Positions 53,580-59,821 of a stretch of DNA of 59,821 nt are shown one piece after another. Position 1 is the stretch's first letter. The number at the start of each line of letters is the position of its first letter. This stretch comes from Fibrobacter succinogenes (lineage in GTDB: Bacteria; Fibrobacterota; Fibrobacteria; Fibrobacterales; Fibrobacteraceae), in NCBI RefSeq assembly GCF_902779965.1, contig NZ_CACZDK010000015.1, positions 1 to 59,821 of the forward strand. The letters run 5' to 3'. Made by a program: the position numbers and the translations under genes. The notes beneath the pieces were generated by a model. That model did no database searches and had not been told where the DNA came from. It saw nothing but the letters and a program-made list of their open reading frames with translations.

Positions 53580-53590
53580 TCATCATCTTC

Positions 53591-53797
53591 CCTCTCTCAA
53601 TACAAAAGAAGCTTTCTCTCTCAATACGAGAGAGACTTTTTCCTCTCTCAAGGAGAGAGACTTTCCCTCTCTCAATACGAGAGAGAGTTTTTTCCTCTCT
53701 CAAGGAGAGAGAGTTTTTTCCCTCTCTCAATACGAGAGAGAGTTTTTTCCTCTCTCAAGGAGAGAGAGTTTTTTCCCTCTCTCAATACGAGAGAGGG
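53591..53797. repeat. Tandem array of 55-bp units, each with two hairpins
   Basis: Alternating hairpins CTCTCTC-AATAC-GAGAGAG (type A) and CCTCTCTCAAGGAGAGAGAG (type B) are separated by T-rich spacers. Type A is at 53616, 53665, 53720 and 53775, type B at 53642, 53694 and 53749. The last three A copies are exactly 55 bp apart. A degenerate A half-site begins at 53591. All frames across it stay open, but the translations are simple repeats and not likely proteins. There are no unique spacers, so it is not a CRISPR array. Confidence 0.85.
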
Positions 53798-53803
53798 ATT
53801 AGA

Positions 53804-53939: not shown

Positions 53940-53983
53940 TTGAAACAAAAAGCGAAGCCTTACGGCTTCGCTTTTTGTTTCAA
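53940..53983 (-). terminator. Long terminator after tRNA-Ser
   Basis: A 20-bp perfect stem begins TTGAAACAAAAAGCG and closes on loop TTAC. T-rich arms on both strands allow termination in both directions. It abuts the tRNA 3' end. Confidence 0.85.
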
Positions 53984-53984
53984 A

Positions 53985-54068
53985 GGAGAGAGAGGGATTC
54001 GAACCCTCGGTCCTGTGACAGACTCCGGATTTCGAGACCGGCCCATTCGACCACTCTGGCATCTCTCC
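53985..54068 (-). tRNA. tRNA-Ser (anticodon CGA)
   Basis: Minus-strand cloverleaf: acceptor GGAGAGA/TCTCTCC, D-arm with AGTGGTCGAATGG, anticodon loop CTCGAAA (anticodon CGA, reading UCG), a long variable arm as in all bacterial tRNA-Ser, and T-arm GAGGG-TTCGAAT-CCCTC. No CCA is encoded, and the base after the acceptor would be U, not the G usual for tRNA-Ser. The acceptor/T-stem sequence GGAGAGAGAGGGATT resembles the hairpin arms of the array 200 bases downstream. Confidence 0.93.
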
Positions 54069-54442: not shown

Positions 54443-56926
54443 ATGGCAGAATATATTTCTAGCAATACGGAAGATCTGTACCCAGACAACAATTCCAACA
54501 TGAAACTCGAAGCCGATGCGTTCCTGAACGCCATTGCAGGCGGCGCAGACGAAGACCAAGCTGACGAAGCGGCTTTCCTCGCGACAAATCCAGACGGAAT
54601 CATCGTTGACGACAACGGCGAAGTTCTCAAGGCTGGTGCAGAATCCAAAATTTGCGAAGGCGAAAAGGTCGAATTTATCGACGATGACGATGAAGCGAGC
54701 GTTGCCGAAAAGGAGATGCCCGCTCATACTTCGACCAAGCTCAGCACAGAAGCCGGGCATGACACAACAGTGGCTGCAACTAGCTCAGCAAATTTAAATG
54801 AAGACTCTACAGACGAAGAAATCGGCGACGAATCCTTGGTAACATTCGATGATCTCGGTCTTTCTCCGGAAGTTCTCGAAGCGGTCAAGCTCGCCGGTTA
54901 CGAAACACCCTCGCCCATCCAGGCCAAGGCCATTCCGGTTCTCTTGCAAGGCGTGAACCTCCTCGGTACTGCACAAACCGGTACTGGCAAGACGGCTGCA
55001 TTCTCGCTCCCGCTCCTTTCGCGAATCAATTTCAACGGGCGCGAAACGTCCATGCTCGTACTCACGCCGACACGCGAACTTGCCATCCAAGTTTCCGATG
55101 CCATCCAGCAATACGCGGTCAAAATGTCGAACGTGACCGTTGTTCCGGTCTATGGTGGTCAAGACATATCCATCCAGCTGCGCGCCCTCAAGCGCAAGGC
55201 AAGTATCGTCGTTGCCACTCCGGGTCGCCTCATCGACCACATCAAGCGCGGTTCTATTTCGCTCGGAGCTGTCAAAGCCATTGTCCTCGACGAAGCTGAC
55301 GAAATGCTCGACATGGGCTTTATGGAAGACGTGGAGACCATCCTCAAGGAAATCCCCGCCGACGCCCAGCGCGCCCTCTTTAGCGCCACCATGCCCGACA
55401 GCGTCAAGAAGATTATCGACCAGCACTTGGGCGAATACGAAGAAGCTCGCATCGAAGGCAAAACAACTACCGTCGAAAACATCCGCCAGCGTTTCTTGGC
55501 CGTGAAAAACGAACACAAAATCGAAGCGCTCGCCCGCGTTCTCGAAGGCGAAGAATTTGACGGCGTTTTGATTTTCGTGCGCACCAAGCAGAACACCACC
55601 GAAGTCGCAGAAAAGCTCGAAAGCCGCGGTTTCAATGTGGCCCCGCTCAACGGCGACCTCGCACAATCCATGCGCGAACGCACCATCAACCGTCTCAAGA
55701 TGGGCAAGCTCGATATCGTCGTCGCAACAGACGTCGCCGCCCGCGGCATTGACGTAGACCGCATTTCGCTCGTGGTGAACTACGACATTCCTTACGACAC
55801 CGAATCTTACGTGCACCGCATTGGCCGTACAGGCCGCGCAGGCCGTAGCGGAAATGCAATTCTCTTCGTGACACCGCGTGAACGTCGCATGCTCAAGATT
55901 ATCGAGAAGGCAACCCGCCAGCCGATCGAAGCCATGGAAATGCCGACCTCAGAACAGATCAGCAAAAAACGCGTCGATGCATTCAAGGCTAAAGTGAAGA
56001 GTGTTGTGAGCTACGGTGAACTCGACCAGTTCAAGGAACTCGTACGCGCACTCGTTGCCGACGGTTCGATTAATTCGACAGGCTCATCAACCAGCTCACC
56101 GACCGACAACAGCAAGGTCACTGAGCATGCCGAAGTGACCGAAGAGAATGTTGCAATTCCGTTGACCGCCGAAGACATTGCCGCAGCCGTCATCAAGATG
56201 TACCAGAAAAAGCAGCCGCTCTTCCCGAACCTTCCGCCGCTCGAAGCCCCGAAGGAACGCCGCGAAAAAGTCCGCAGCGGCAGAGACTTCCTCGGCAATG
56301 GCGAAGATTTCGGCCTCAACAGCGAAGAACAAAAGCGCATGCGTAAGGAACGCAAGGAAGGCCTGAACGGCGTGGAAGAAGGATTCTTGCGCTATTACTT
56401 GGGCGTTGGCCGCATTGACCACGTCACCCCGCGCGACATTGTAGGTGCAATTGCCGGCGAAGCAAACATCAACAGCAGCAATATCGGCCGCATCAAGCTC
56501 TTCGACAAATTCAGCACCGTTGAATTGCCAGAAACGCTTCCGCAAGACGTTCTCGACATTTTGTCCGAAATGACCATTCGCGGGAACGACGCCCGCTTCC
56601 GCGTAATGACCGACGAACCGCCCGAGGGCCCCGCACCGGGAACAAGACCGCACGCGAGCCGCGAAGAACGCCGCAGCTTCCACAGAGACCGCAAGGGAGG
56701 CTTCCGCGACGAAGAACGCCGTGGCGGTTTCCGCAAAGACCGTGGAGAACGAGGCGAACGCAGCTTTGGCGACAAGCCTTTCGAAAACCGCAAAGCCCGC
56801 CGCGAACGCGAATTTGCCGACCGCAAACCGGGCAAATTCGAAGACAGGCCTTTCCGCAAAGATCACGACGAACGCAATTTCGGCGACAAGCCATTCCGCA
56901 AGACCCGCCGCTTCGGAAGACACTAA
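54443..56926 (+). CDS. deaD: DEAD-box RNA helicase (DeaD/CsdA-like)
   Basis: An 827-residue helicase. An acidic N-terminal extension of about 130 residues precedes the Q motif (VTFDDLGLSPEVLEAVKLAG). Walker A AQTGTGKT is near residue 178, DEAD near 283, SAT near 313, and HRIGRTGRAGR near 460. The RNA-binding DbpA-like domain follows (FLRYYLGVGRIDHVTPRDIVG, about 640-720), then an Arg/Gly/Asp/Phe-rich tail of about 90 residues with repeats such as FGDKPF. Both the acidic N-terminus and the RGG-like tail exceed the E. coli DeaD architecture. Involved in ribosome assembly and mRNA turnover, often at low temperature. Confidence 0.93.
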   Translation: MAEYISSNTEDLYPDNNSNMKLEADAFLNAIAGGADEDQADEAAFLATNPDGIIVDDNGEVLKAGAESKICEGEKVEFIDDDDEASVAEKEMPAHTSTKLSTEAGHDTTVAATSSANLNEDSTDEEIGDESLVTFDDLGLSPEVLEAVKLAGYETPSPIQAKAIPVLLQGVNLLGTAQTGTGKTAAFSLPLLSRINFNGRETSMLVLTPTRELAIQVSDAIQQYAVKMSNVTVVPVYGGQDISIQLRALKRKASIVVATPGRLIDHIKRGSISLGAVKAIVLDEADEMLDMGFMEDVETILKEIPADAQRALFSATMPDSVKKIIDQHLGEYEEARIEGKTTTVENIRQRFLAVKNEHKIEALARVLEGEEFDGVLIFVRTKQNTTEVAEKLESRGFNVAPLNGDLAQSMRERTINRLKMGKLDIVVATDVAARGIDVDRISLVVNYDIPYDTESYVHRIGRTGRAGRSGNAILFVTPRERRMLKIIEKATRQPIEAMEMPTSEQISKKRVDAFKAKVKSVVSYGELDQFKELVRALVADGSINSTGSSTSSPTDNSKVTEHAEVTEENVAIPLTAEDIAAAVIKMYQKKQPLFPNLPPLEAPKERREKVRSGRDFLGNGEDFGLNSEEQKRMRKERKEGLNGVEEGFLRYYLGVGRIDHVTPRDIVGAIAGEANINSSNIGRIKLFDKFSTVELPETLPQDVLDILSEMTIRGNDARFRVMTDEPPEGPAPGTRPHASREERRSFHRDRKGGFRDEERRGGFRKDRGERGERSFGDKPFENRKARREREFADRKPGKFEDRPFRKDHDERNFGDKPFRKTRRFGRH

Positions 56927-56977: not shown

Positions 56978-57073
56978 GTCTTTTGTAAAAAAATAATTTA
57001 TTTATCATTTTTTTCTCTTCTATTATATATTCATATATAATCAAATAACATGTATTTTATACAAGGAGAAAAC

Positions 57074-58090
57074 ATGGCTACAAAAAAAACTAAAGAAGCA
57101 ACTGTCGTTGACTTCAAAAGCTTCCAAAAAACAATTATAGGATATGTTTACGACGAAGAAACAAAAACGTATGAACGTTTAAAAAAATACCTAAAACAGC
57201 TTCAAGGCGATAAAGAATATCAAAATAGTCATTGGACAATAGGAGAACTAACTAAAGAAAGAGATAAAGAAGCGGGTATAAGAATAACCTCTGTAGTCAC
57301 AGAAGCAATGTCGCTATTATTCAAGGAAAATCTTCCAGATTACTATAGCACGGCAAGAGACCTTTTTAGAGAAATTTCTCAAAGATACGCTCAACGAAGA
57401 GAACCCAAGCCTGGTGAAATTTATGAAGGTGATATAGTCAAATATTCACAACTATTATTAGAAAATAGTGTTAGGTATATCGCTAAAAAAACACTAGACA
57501 ATAATTTAAGTATTCAAAAAAAAACAAAGGCAAATCTTCTTAATAAATTACAGGAACCAATTTCTGAAGAAAGTTGTGTAGCCATTTCAAACGCATTTAT
57601 CAACTACATCGATACTATTGAAAAGGGACAATTAACTCTTGCAAAAGAAATTAGCAAAATCATGCCTGAAGGCATTGAACTCACCCCGATTAAAATCGAG
57701 AAAGTCGTCCCGCCTTATGTCGATGTCAAGATTCCAGTGCCGGAACCAAGAATTCCTCTTGATCCGAAAATTCCTATACCAGATCCGAGAATTCCGCTTG
57801 ACCCGAAGATTCCTCTGCCAGATCCGAAGATTCCAATTCCAAGACCAGAAATCAAAATTCCTGGTCCATACTACAAGATTAAGGATCTCGAAATCAAGCT
57901 TGCCGAAGTGGAACGTATCCGCAAGTCTCTTCCCAAGAATGCCACCAAGGCCGAAAAAAAGGCTGCAGCAAATGCCGAACAGCAGATTAAGAACTTGCTG
58001 AAGGCTGCCAAGAGAGCAGAACCCAAAGCAGCCAAAAAAGCTGTTGCAAAAAAGGCAACCGTCAAAAAAACAGCAACGAAAAAAAAGTAA
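57074..58090 (+). CDS. Proline-repeat protein with histone-like lysine tail, partner of the radical SAM gene
   Basis: A 338-residue protein that I do not recognise. Residues 1-195 are helical and charged. Residues about 217-265 are a proline repeat built on I-P-x-D/E-P-K/R: KIPVPEPR, IPLDPK, IPIPDPR, IPLDPK, IPLPDPK, IPIPRPE. A predicted coiled coil follows, and the last 30 residues are Ala/Lys-rich like histone H1 (AAKKAVAKKATVKKTATKKK). GGAG is 6 nt before ATG 57074. The first 580 bases are clearly more AT-rich and use AGA/TTA codons unlike the neighbours; from about 57660 the codon use turns host-like, so the gene looks mosaic. Its TAA is directly followed by the ATG of the radical SAM gene. 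A role as substrate or scaffold of that enzyme is inferred from coupling only. Confidence 0.7.
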   Translation: MATKKTKEATVVDFKSFQKTIIGYVYDEETKTYERLKKYLKQLQGDKEYQNSHWTIGELTKERDKEAGIRITSVVTEAMSLLFKENLPDYYSTARDLFREISQRYAQRREPKPGEIYEGDIVKYSQLLLENSVRYIAKKTLDNNLSIQKKTKANLLNKLQEPISEESCVAISNAFINYIDTIEKGQLTLAKEISKIMPEGIELTPIKIEKVVPPYVDVKIPVPEPRIPLDPKIPIPDPRIPLDPKIPLPDPKIPIPRPEIKIPGPYYKIKDLEIKLAEVERIRKSLPKNATKAEKKAAANAEQQIKNLLKAAKRAEPKAAKKAVAKKATVKKTATKKK

Positions 58091-59152
58091 ATGAGCATTA
58101 CTCCGTTAAAAAACGGGTGTTTTAGCATTGTTACAACAGATGGGTGCACCGCAAGGTGTTCCCATTGTTTAATGAATTGCACCCCGCGCAAAAAGAACAA
58201 AGTACAATTTGAACAAATACAAAAATGCATTGATCAAATTGTGAAAAACTATAACACAAAACTCATTGTTTTTACAGGTGGCGAATCCACTTTACTCGGC
58301 GAAGACCTTATCCGCGCGATTCGTTATTGTACTCTTAATTTTTTAAGAACACGACTCGTCACGAATGCGCACTGGGCTACAAGTCTCGAAAGAGCCAAGC
58401 GCTACATCGAAAAATTCCGCAGCGTAGGCCTTTGCGAACTAGACATTAGTGTTGATGACTACCATGAACCATTTGTTCCATTGGAAAATATCCGCAATGT
58501 TTGGCAAGCGAGCAAAGGAGCCGGTTTCGATTCTGTTGTTCTAGCCAACAGCCACGGCAAGAATGACAAGATTACGCCTTCTTTTATCCAAGAGTTTCTA
58601 GGTGAAGAGATTCACGTTTCGACACCAAATTCAAGAGCTTATGGAAAAGAAGACGAAATAAAAACCCAAAATAAAACCATCTATCAAATTTATGAAAATA
58701 CGCTCCAAAAAAGCGGTCGTGCAGAAACGCTCGACAAAAGTAAATTTGATGTCTTTGCCAACCGGGAAACTTTATCTTGCTGTTGTACCTGGGCCGTCAA
58801 CGACCCTGTACTCTCGCCAATGGGGCATATATGGGCTTGCTGTGGCATTCCGTCAGACAACAATCCCATTCTAGATCTAGGAGATGCAAACAAGGAAAAA
58901 ATTAAAACAATCTTTAACAGAGCTTCTAAAAACGTTTTCCTCAATGCAATTCATTATCTGGGTCCTTTATGGCTATGCAAATTTGTCGAAGAACATAGCA
59001 AAATCCGATTCAGCAAAGAGTTATGCGGAGTCTGTGAAATTTGCAGCGCTTTAACAAATAACAAAAAGGCAATTCAAGTTCTTCATGATAACGAAAAGGC
59101 CATAGCAGCCATAGTTCGTGCCAAAAAACTTGAAAAAAAAGAGAATTCTTAA
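58091..59152 (+). CDS. Radical SAM enzyme with Cys-rich C-terminal (SPASM-like) region
   Basis: A 353-residue radical SAM protein. The [4Fe-4S]-SAM motif is C19-TAR-C23-SH-C26; FTGGEST is the SAM-binding GGE motif; LDISVDDYHE fits strand 4-5 of the barrel. The C-terminal third has many cysteines, CCCTW, WACCGIP, LCKFVEEH and CGVCEIC, consistent with an auxiliary iron-sulphur cluster as in SPASM/twitch peptide-modifying enzymes. The ATG follows the upstream stop without a gap, so it depends on translation of the proline-repeat gene. The most likely job is modification of a peptide or protein, but no known RiPP precursor is visible. A terminator follows at 59196. Confidence 0.82.
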   Translation: MSITPLKNGCFSIVTTDGCTARCSHCLMNCTPRKKNKVQFEQIQKCIDQIVKNYNTKLIVFTGGESTLLGEDLIRAIRYCTLNFLRTRLVTNAHWATSLERAKRYIEKFRSVGLCELDISVDDYHEPFVPLENIRNVWQASKGAGFDSVVLANSHGKNDKITPSFIQEFLGEEIHVSTPNSRAYGKEDEIKTQNKTIYQIYENTLQKSGRAETLDKSKFDVFANRETLSCCCTWAVNDPVLSPMGHIWACCGIPSDNNPILDLGDANKEKIKTIFNRASKNVFLNAIHYLGPLWLCKFVEEHSKIRFSKELCGVCEICSALTNNKKAIQVLHDNEKAIAAIVRAKKLEKKENS

Positions 59153-59195: not shown

Positions 59196-59223
59196 AAGGG
59201 CGACCCCAAAGGGCCGCCCTTTT
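59196..59223. terminator. Bidirectional terminator
   Basis: AAGGGCGACCCC and GGGCCGCCCTT pair around AAA, with T-rich flanks. It ends the radical SAM operon and, from the other side, the small minus-strand ORF. Confidence 0.8.
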
Positions 59224-59238
59224 CGTGTAACTAAAAGA

Positions 59239-59720: not shown

Positions 59721-59726
59721 GAGAAT

Positions 59727-59821
<95 letters not shown>

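Follow-up and report, generated by a model that had tools for sequence, protein, structure and literature searches.

A predicted EpeE-like radical SAM epimerase encoded directly after an Ile/Pro-repeat protein in Fibrobacter succinogenes

Analysis of a 59,821-nt stretch of Fibrobacter succinogenes DNA (contig NZ_CACZDK010000015.1, hereafter the window) reveals two adjoining genes that we read, with a probability of about two in three, as a radical SAM epimerase system pared down to an enzyme and its substrate, in which D-residues would be set in the repeat core of a large leader-core-follower precursor (Table 1). The enzyme is homologous to EpeE and has the conserved catalytic cysteine; the partner protein is encoded next to it in all seven genomes that have the enzyme, joins, by way of a relative, a family whose leaders are homologous to those of NHLP-like precursors, and has a core that evolves faster than the conserved regions on either side. 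Enzymes of this type are known, but a proline-repeat target of this kind is undescribed, and no description of such an enzyme-partner pair was found in open-access papers.

Table 1. Features of the two-gene locus and its flanks, in window coordinates
Feature	Position	Strand	Basis
DEAD-box RNA helicase gene, 5′ flank of the pair	54443-56926		name taken from its sequence
Ribosome-binding-site-like AAGGAG of the partner gene	57063-57068	+	sequence reading
Partner gene, predicted precursor and substrate, 338 aa	57074-58090	+	ORF; a homologue directly precedes the enzyme gene in 7/7 genomes
N-terminal extension, partner residues 1-138	57074-57487	+	no relative found; helical by prediction
Leader module, partner residues 139-217	57488-57724	+	related via G022 to other Fibrobacter partner leaders
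Core, Ile/Pro repeat, partner residues 218-265 (48 aa), three 13-aa units	57725-57868	+	predicted modification sites
Follower with Lys-rich tail; conserved helical hairpin RIRKSLPKNATKAEKKAAANAEQQIKNLLKAAKRAEPK	57869-58087	+	alignment, repeat analysis, model
EpeE/YydG-like radical SAM enzyme gene, 353 aa	58091-59152	+	ORF; family-model, PDB and fold matches
Radical SAM cluster motif C19-x3-C23-x2-C26	58145-58168	+	sequence, alignment
C232, putative auxiliary-cluster ligand	58784-58786	+	invariant in 24 relatives
C250-C251, putative auxiliary-cluster ligand and H-atom donor (EpeE C222 and C223)	58838-58843	+	alignment with 8ai1/8ai3
C315-x2-C318, putative auxiliary-cluster ligands	59033-59044	+	alignment
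Terminator-like stem-loop and T run, end of the two-gene unit	59196-59225	+	folding, -19.6 kcal/mol
5S rRNA gene, 3′ flank of the pair	59725-59821	minus	

Gene order and pairing across Fibrobacter genomes

The stop codon of the partner gene (TAA, 58088-58090) is followed directly by the ATG of the enzyme gene (58091), bearing out the zero gap claimed in a first-pass annotation of the window; this TAA/ATG junction, which has no Shine-Dalgarno sequence of its own, suggests translational coupling. The partner starts at an ATG 5 bases after its AAGGAG, and a longer in-frame reading would begin at the ATG at 57050. The two-gene unit is closed by a terminator-like stem-loop followed by TTTT (z -4.1), and no peptidase, transporter or immunity gene was found adjoining the pair. 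Farther upstream, an array of 26-28 nt repeats (55-nt dimer; CTCTCTCAATACGAGAGAG / CTCTCTCAAGGAGAGAGAG) occupies positions 53587-53800, a region that appears intergenic and in which every unit is a small inverted repeat, and a perfect 20-nt inverted repeat with a 4-nt loop (53940-53983) adjoins a tRNA gene (53984-54068, minus strand).

Among 111 Fibrobacteraceae genomes, seven encode the enzyme, and in all seven the partner lies directly upstream, in two different genomic settings and with a gap of 0 (G000, G086, G064 and G025) or 15 nt (G036, G087 and G082). The first-pass annotation had held that enzyme homologues occurring mostly without the partner would speak against the pair; in the genomes within reach, this is not the pattern seen. 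The seven genomes are related, so they do not represent seven independent events. Among good-quality genomes the pair is found in 7 of 56, which indicates that the system is accessory.

The radical SAM enzyme

The best NCBIfam match of the enzyme is the YydG epimerase model TIGR04078, which it matches over its full length with an E-value of 5.7e-34 and a score of 118 bits. Because this score lies far under the curated cut-off of 300 bits, which no protein in 168 Fibrobacterota genomes exceeds, membership of the equivalog (YydG proper) is not claimed. Full-length PDB matches are the EpeE entries 8ai1-8ai6 only (E 5e-21 when the enzyme sequence alone is the query, 7e-34 when a profile built from 13 relatives is used), and in a fold search with a weak model of the enzyme the top nine matches are all EpeE. 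Viperin matches were rejected, as they reflect the common radical SAM core. Judged by its sequence, the enzyme is a predicted EpeE-like epimerase at the superfamily level, outside the YydG equivalog, and in all respects open to computational testing this predicted enzyme resembles an epimerase.

In an alignment of 24 relatives spanning Fibrobacterota, Pseudomonadota, Actinomycetota, Bacillota, Deinococcota and Halobacteria, residues C19/C23/C26, C232, C250, C251, C315, C318 and H125 are invariant, and C230 and C312 vary. Their invariance across relatives makes C232, C250, C315 and C318 the likely ligands of an auxiliary cluster. C251 aligns with EpeE C223, the residue altered in the C223A structures (8ai3 among them) and the proposed H-atom donor in the epimerisation of Val36 and Ile44 (PMC8326336). 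The C-terminus, earlier described as Cys-rich and SPASM-like, is indeed Cys-rich; it is EpeE/YydG-like and not a classical two-cluster SPASM domain. No relatives of the enzyme were found in viral contigs or phages.

The partner protein and its relatives

The partner has no usable match in Pfam, NCBIfam, PHROGs, PADLOC or the PDB, and a search against plasmids found no relative. Its sequence is organised like a large RiPP precursor, with a putative leader, a fast-changing Ile/Val-Pro core and a conserved Lys-rich follower. An AlphaFold model predicts helices at residues 14-211 and 269-336 and leaves the core non-helical; the models of both proteins are weak (pLDDT 56 and 51) and therefore serve as support only. 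Profile comparison did not support a further copy of the leader within residues 1-112.

The core is built of 39-nt units (13 aa) at 57728, 57767 and 57806 (KIPVPEPRIPLDP / KIPIPDPRIPLDP / KIPLPDPKIPIPR), each a 7+6 alternation. The motif [KR]IP[ILV] occurs six times in the partner, against at most three times (mean 0.13) in 20,000 shuffles of the same protein, and in the 4.1-Mb genome only these three units match a degenerate nucleotide pattern encoding KIP[ILV]P[DE]P. The six or more near-identical proline-repeat units annotated earlier are confirmed as six [KR]IP[ILV] motifs, in a repeat found nowhere else in the genome, and corrected in their detail: only two copies read exactly I-P-x-D-P-K, and the remaining half-units have an extra proline (IPxPDP) in keeping with the 7+6 alternation. 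The lysine tail is present as annotated, as a Lys/Ala-rich C-terminus. Units 1 and 2 differ at nine nucleotides, six of them in synonymous codons, a small count that hints at selection keeping the repeat peptide.

Alignment of the seven partners reveals a helical leader, a highly variable Pro/Ile/Val-rich core, and a follower whose sequence, ending in a Lys-rich tail, is strongly conserved. The core variants include IPxPDP, PPIPPIPKP, KPEIKPKV and NPIIPI, and Ile/Val (23-40%) and Pro (26-50%) are abundant in all cores. The G064 and G025 systems, for instance, show a single-residue difference in each of enzyme, leader and follower, but seven changes plus a 4-residue indel in the core. At the corresponding position, the enzyme-less genome G022 encodes a relative of the partner that lacks both the IP-repeat core and the follower. 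This protein (L030, 1217-2233, minus strand) contains two copies of a leader-like module and two WPCGTPW segments. In G016, an incomplete MAG of another genus, a leader is followed by KPQIPI repeats, with no follower and no adjacent enzyme; this is counter-evidence to the pairing, weakened by the incompleteness of the MAG.

Other phyla were sampled through plasmid records, in which relatives of the enzyme adjoin proteins with a leader-core-follower layout in Klebsiella (NALALANANAVANANALANANIMANVN), Collinsella (LNANAVTNANIILNANGMANANANA) and Thermus (NVNTNLNVSTNANFNYNANYNYN); in Halocatena, Streptomyces and Enterococcus such proteins have cores rich in Val and Ala. In the enzyme tree, the window clade groups with the Klebsiella, Rhizobium and Collinsella enzymes (98/95). 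BLASTP of two single precursors detected no leader homology, and a profile against a single sequence gave a marginal result; the question was settled by a decoy test and multi-sequence profiles. Specifically, an HMM built from Fibrobacter leaders only, run on known precursors together with 574 decoy ORFs, placed ahead of all true decoys a 219-aa Rhizobium ORF (E 0.0011) that had been filed beforehand as a decoy and that has the core NANANANA / ANVNAGANANAGANANALANANANANANANTNG and lies in an epimerase cluster. The reverse HMM, built from three NANA leaders, recovered five Fibrobacter-type leaders at E-values of 3e-6 to 3e-3, with the first decoy at 0.45, and a profile-profile comparison of Fibrobacter and NANA leaders gave an E-value of 2.5e-6. 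This homology was seen for the other F1 partners and for G016; the leader of the window partner is the most divergent and joins the family only via G022 (49% over residues 142-211), the G022 and window leaders together matching the other leaders at an E-value of 9e-4.

The Rhizobium leader matches NHLP-related RiPP models at an E-value of 2e-4, under their curated cut-offs, and the follower of the Rhizobium precursor is Pfam DUF5969 (E 2e-23), a domain that is also the follower in Collinsella and that no open-access paper found in our search names. Homology of the Fibrobacter F1 follower to DUF5969 was rejected by profile comparison. The clusters with NANANA cores in Rhizobium leguminosarum (plasmid; L043, 1335-7183), Klebsiella sp. 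PL-2018 (pmk4; L042, 3859-10972) and Collinsella (L044, 4231-7167) combine an EpeE-like epimerase with a HemK-like methyltransferase, to which Rhizobium adds a B12-rSAM enzyme and Klebsiella adds type I export and an SdpI-like protein. The gene set is polytheonamide-like, but its epimerase is EpeE-type and not PoyD-type.

Proposed reaction, alternatives and a second family

The pair resembles the EpeE (YydG)/epipeptide (EpeX) system of Bacillus subtilis in whole-length enzyme homology, one auxiliary cluster and the H-donor cysteine, and EpeE acts on Val/Ile, residues abundant in the partner core. It differs in its precursor, which has 338 aa, proline repeats and a follower where EpeX is short and carries two D-residues, and in its gene content, two genes only against the peptidase and ABC transporter genes that accompany EpeX. 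The traits of an epipeptide (EpeX/YydF) cluster, namely a precursor of ~50 aa, a peptidase and an ABC transporter, are absent at the seven Fibrobacter loci, and the locus falls outside this class; a YydF-type cluster was viewed for comparison. The NANANA/DUF5969 clusters share with the pair sister enzymes, leaders homologous to those of the partner family and the leader-core-follower layout, and differ in their Asn/Ala alternating core, their methyltransferase (and, in Rhizobium, B12-rSAM enzyme) and their follower. Proteusins (polytheonamide, PoyD epimerase) have a large leader and many epimerised sites per core, as predicted here; PoyD-type epimerases have one cluster and an RRE and no significant homology to EpeE (PMC8326336), and in Pfam and NCBIfam neither protein of the pair matches proteusin traits (nitrile-hydratase-like leader, PoyD-type epimerase with RRE). 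Leader similarity to NHLP-related precursors (TIGR04509, Os1348/NF038399) is weak and runs through Rhizobium, with its match below the curated cut-off, and the second Fibrobacter family; the F1 partners themselves reach no NHLP-related model.

Epimerisation itself, its exact target residues, its effects on structure and the translational coupling are our inferences. The enzyme, with its radical SAM cluster and one auxiliary [4Fe-4S] cluster, would take the C-alpha hydrogen from core residues, with the invariant Ile in each [KR]-I-P as the most likely target, and C251 would quench the radical from the opposite face, giving D-Ile or D-Val/Leu. Translational coupling would allow the enzyme to be made while its substrate is made. 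A D-residue before L-Pro favours tight turns, and repeated D-Ile-L-Pro would fold an otherwise extended polyproline segment into successive turns of this kind. If cut out and exported, the core could perhaps be an antagonistic peptide. The first-pass annotation had objected that a partner of 338 residues is not a short precursor; the objection fails, because precursors beside related enzymes run to 120-300 aa and the length therefore does not count against a precursor role. Epimerisation is mass-neutral, so a search of repeat peptides for mass shifts would give a false negative. Having only two genes, the system is easy to test.

An enzyme plus its repetitive substrate is the best reading of the pair. 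Known EpeE and PoyD cores, unlike that of the partner, are not proline-rich, which counts against the epimerase-precursor reading, as do the divergent leader and 138-residue extension of the window partner and the lack of an adjoining peptidase, transporter or immunity gene. The enzyme might instead act on the repeat core by another radical chemistry, forming cyclopropanes on Ile/Val side chains or C-C cross-links. A precedent is TvgA/TvgB of Halomonas (poly-cyclopropylglycine), in which a radical SAM enzyme acts on a repeated short motif, TvgB targeting Val in a repeated TVGG core (PMC9062424), and repeated Ile would suit as a target; TvgB is of another enzyme family, its product is lighter (-2 Da) and its Gly/Thr/Val core lacks proline (PMC9062424). 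We consider such chemistry unlikely, given that the full-length relatives of the enzyme are EpeE and not SPASM cross-linkers and that the EpeE H-donor cysteine is invariant.

That the two genes are mere neighbours, with no enzyme-substrate relation, is highly improbable: the partner-like proteins without adjacent enzyme in G022 and G016 would fit, but strict adjacency in all seven genomes, across both settings and with a junction of 0 or 15 nt, and the homology of the leaders to precursors of sister enzymes argue against it. The enzyme-substrate relation proposed in the first-pass annotation accordingly gains from the conserved pairing and from the link, by way of G022, between the partner leader and a RiPP-precursor leader family, and loses its SPASM label. 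A substrate need not be a precursor of a secreted peptide. The partner could be an uncut cytoplasmic protein whose shape the enzyme tunes through D-residues, a reading to which we give a low probability, and an equally low one to its specific form, in which the partner is a rigid polyproline spacer whose histone-like tail binds nucleic acid. In favour of an uncut protein are the lack of a peptidase or transporter gene beside any of the seven pairs and the Lys-rich follower, which is the best-conserved part of the partner. Against it, the leader family is shared with NHLP-like RiPP precursors, related clusters have SdpI-like or type I export genes, and the patchy presence among good-quality genomes fits an accessory product.

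If the epimerase-precursor reading is correct, radical SAM peptide epimerases reach beyond short antimicrobial peptides to long proline-repeat proteins; should the partner stay uncut, radical epimerisation would be a structural protein modification, placing D-residues in a full-length polyproline protein. Leader homology and enzyme phylogeny tie Ile/Pro-repeat and Asn/Ala alternating cores to one EpeE-like lineage across phyla, and NANANA cores with a methyltransferase and an EpeE-type epimerase would, if so modified, represent an independent route to a polytheonamide-like architecture.

A second EpeE-like enzyme occurs in the same genus, including the window genome (contig C14), with short precursors of 120-197 aa directly upstream. 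Some of these precursors have 'NPPIPFPRP' or 'PTPTPIPIP' cores, so that Ile/Pro cores beside EpeE-like enzymes occur twice. The second-family loci (L070, 4193-6584, corresponding to C14 62692-65083 of the window genome, and L071-L077) consist of precursor, enzyme and a third gene of ~280 aa; the precursor-enzyme gap is 0 in the window genome, and the third-gene product has a weak SPASM-like match only. In genome G009, the gene for a radical SAM protein of a different kind is closely preceded by one for a short Cys-rich peptide, CDPWCGPAEACNPQCVPSCSPSCPPCYPFGRC (L081, 4093-4326, minus strand).
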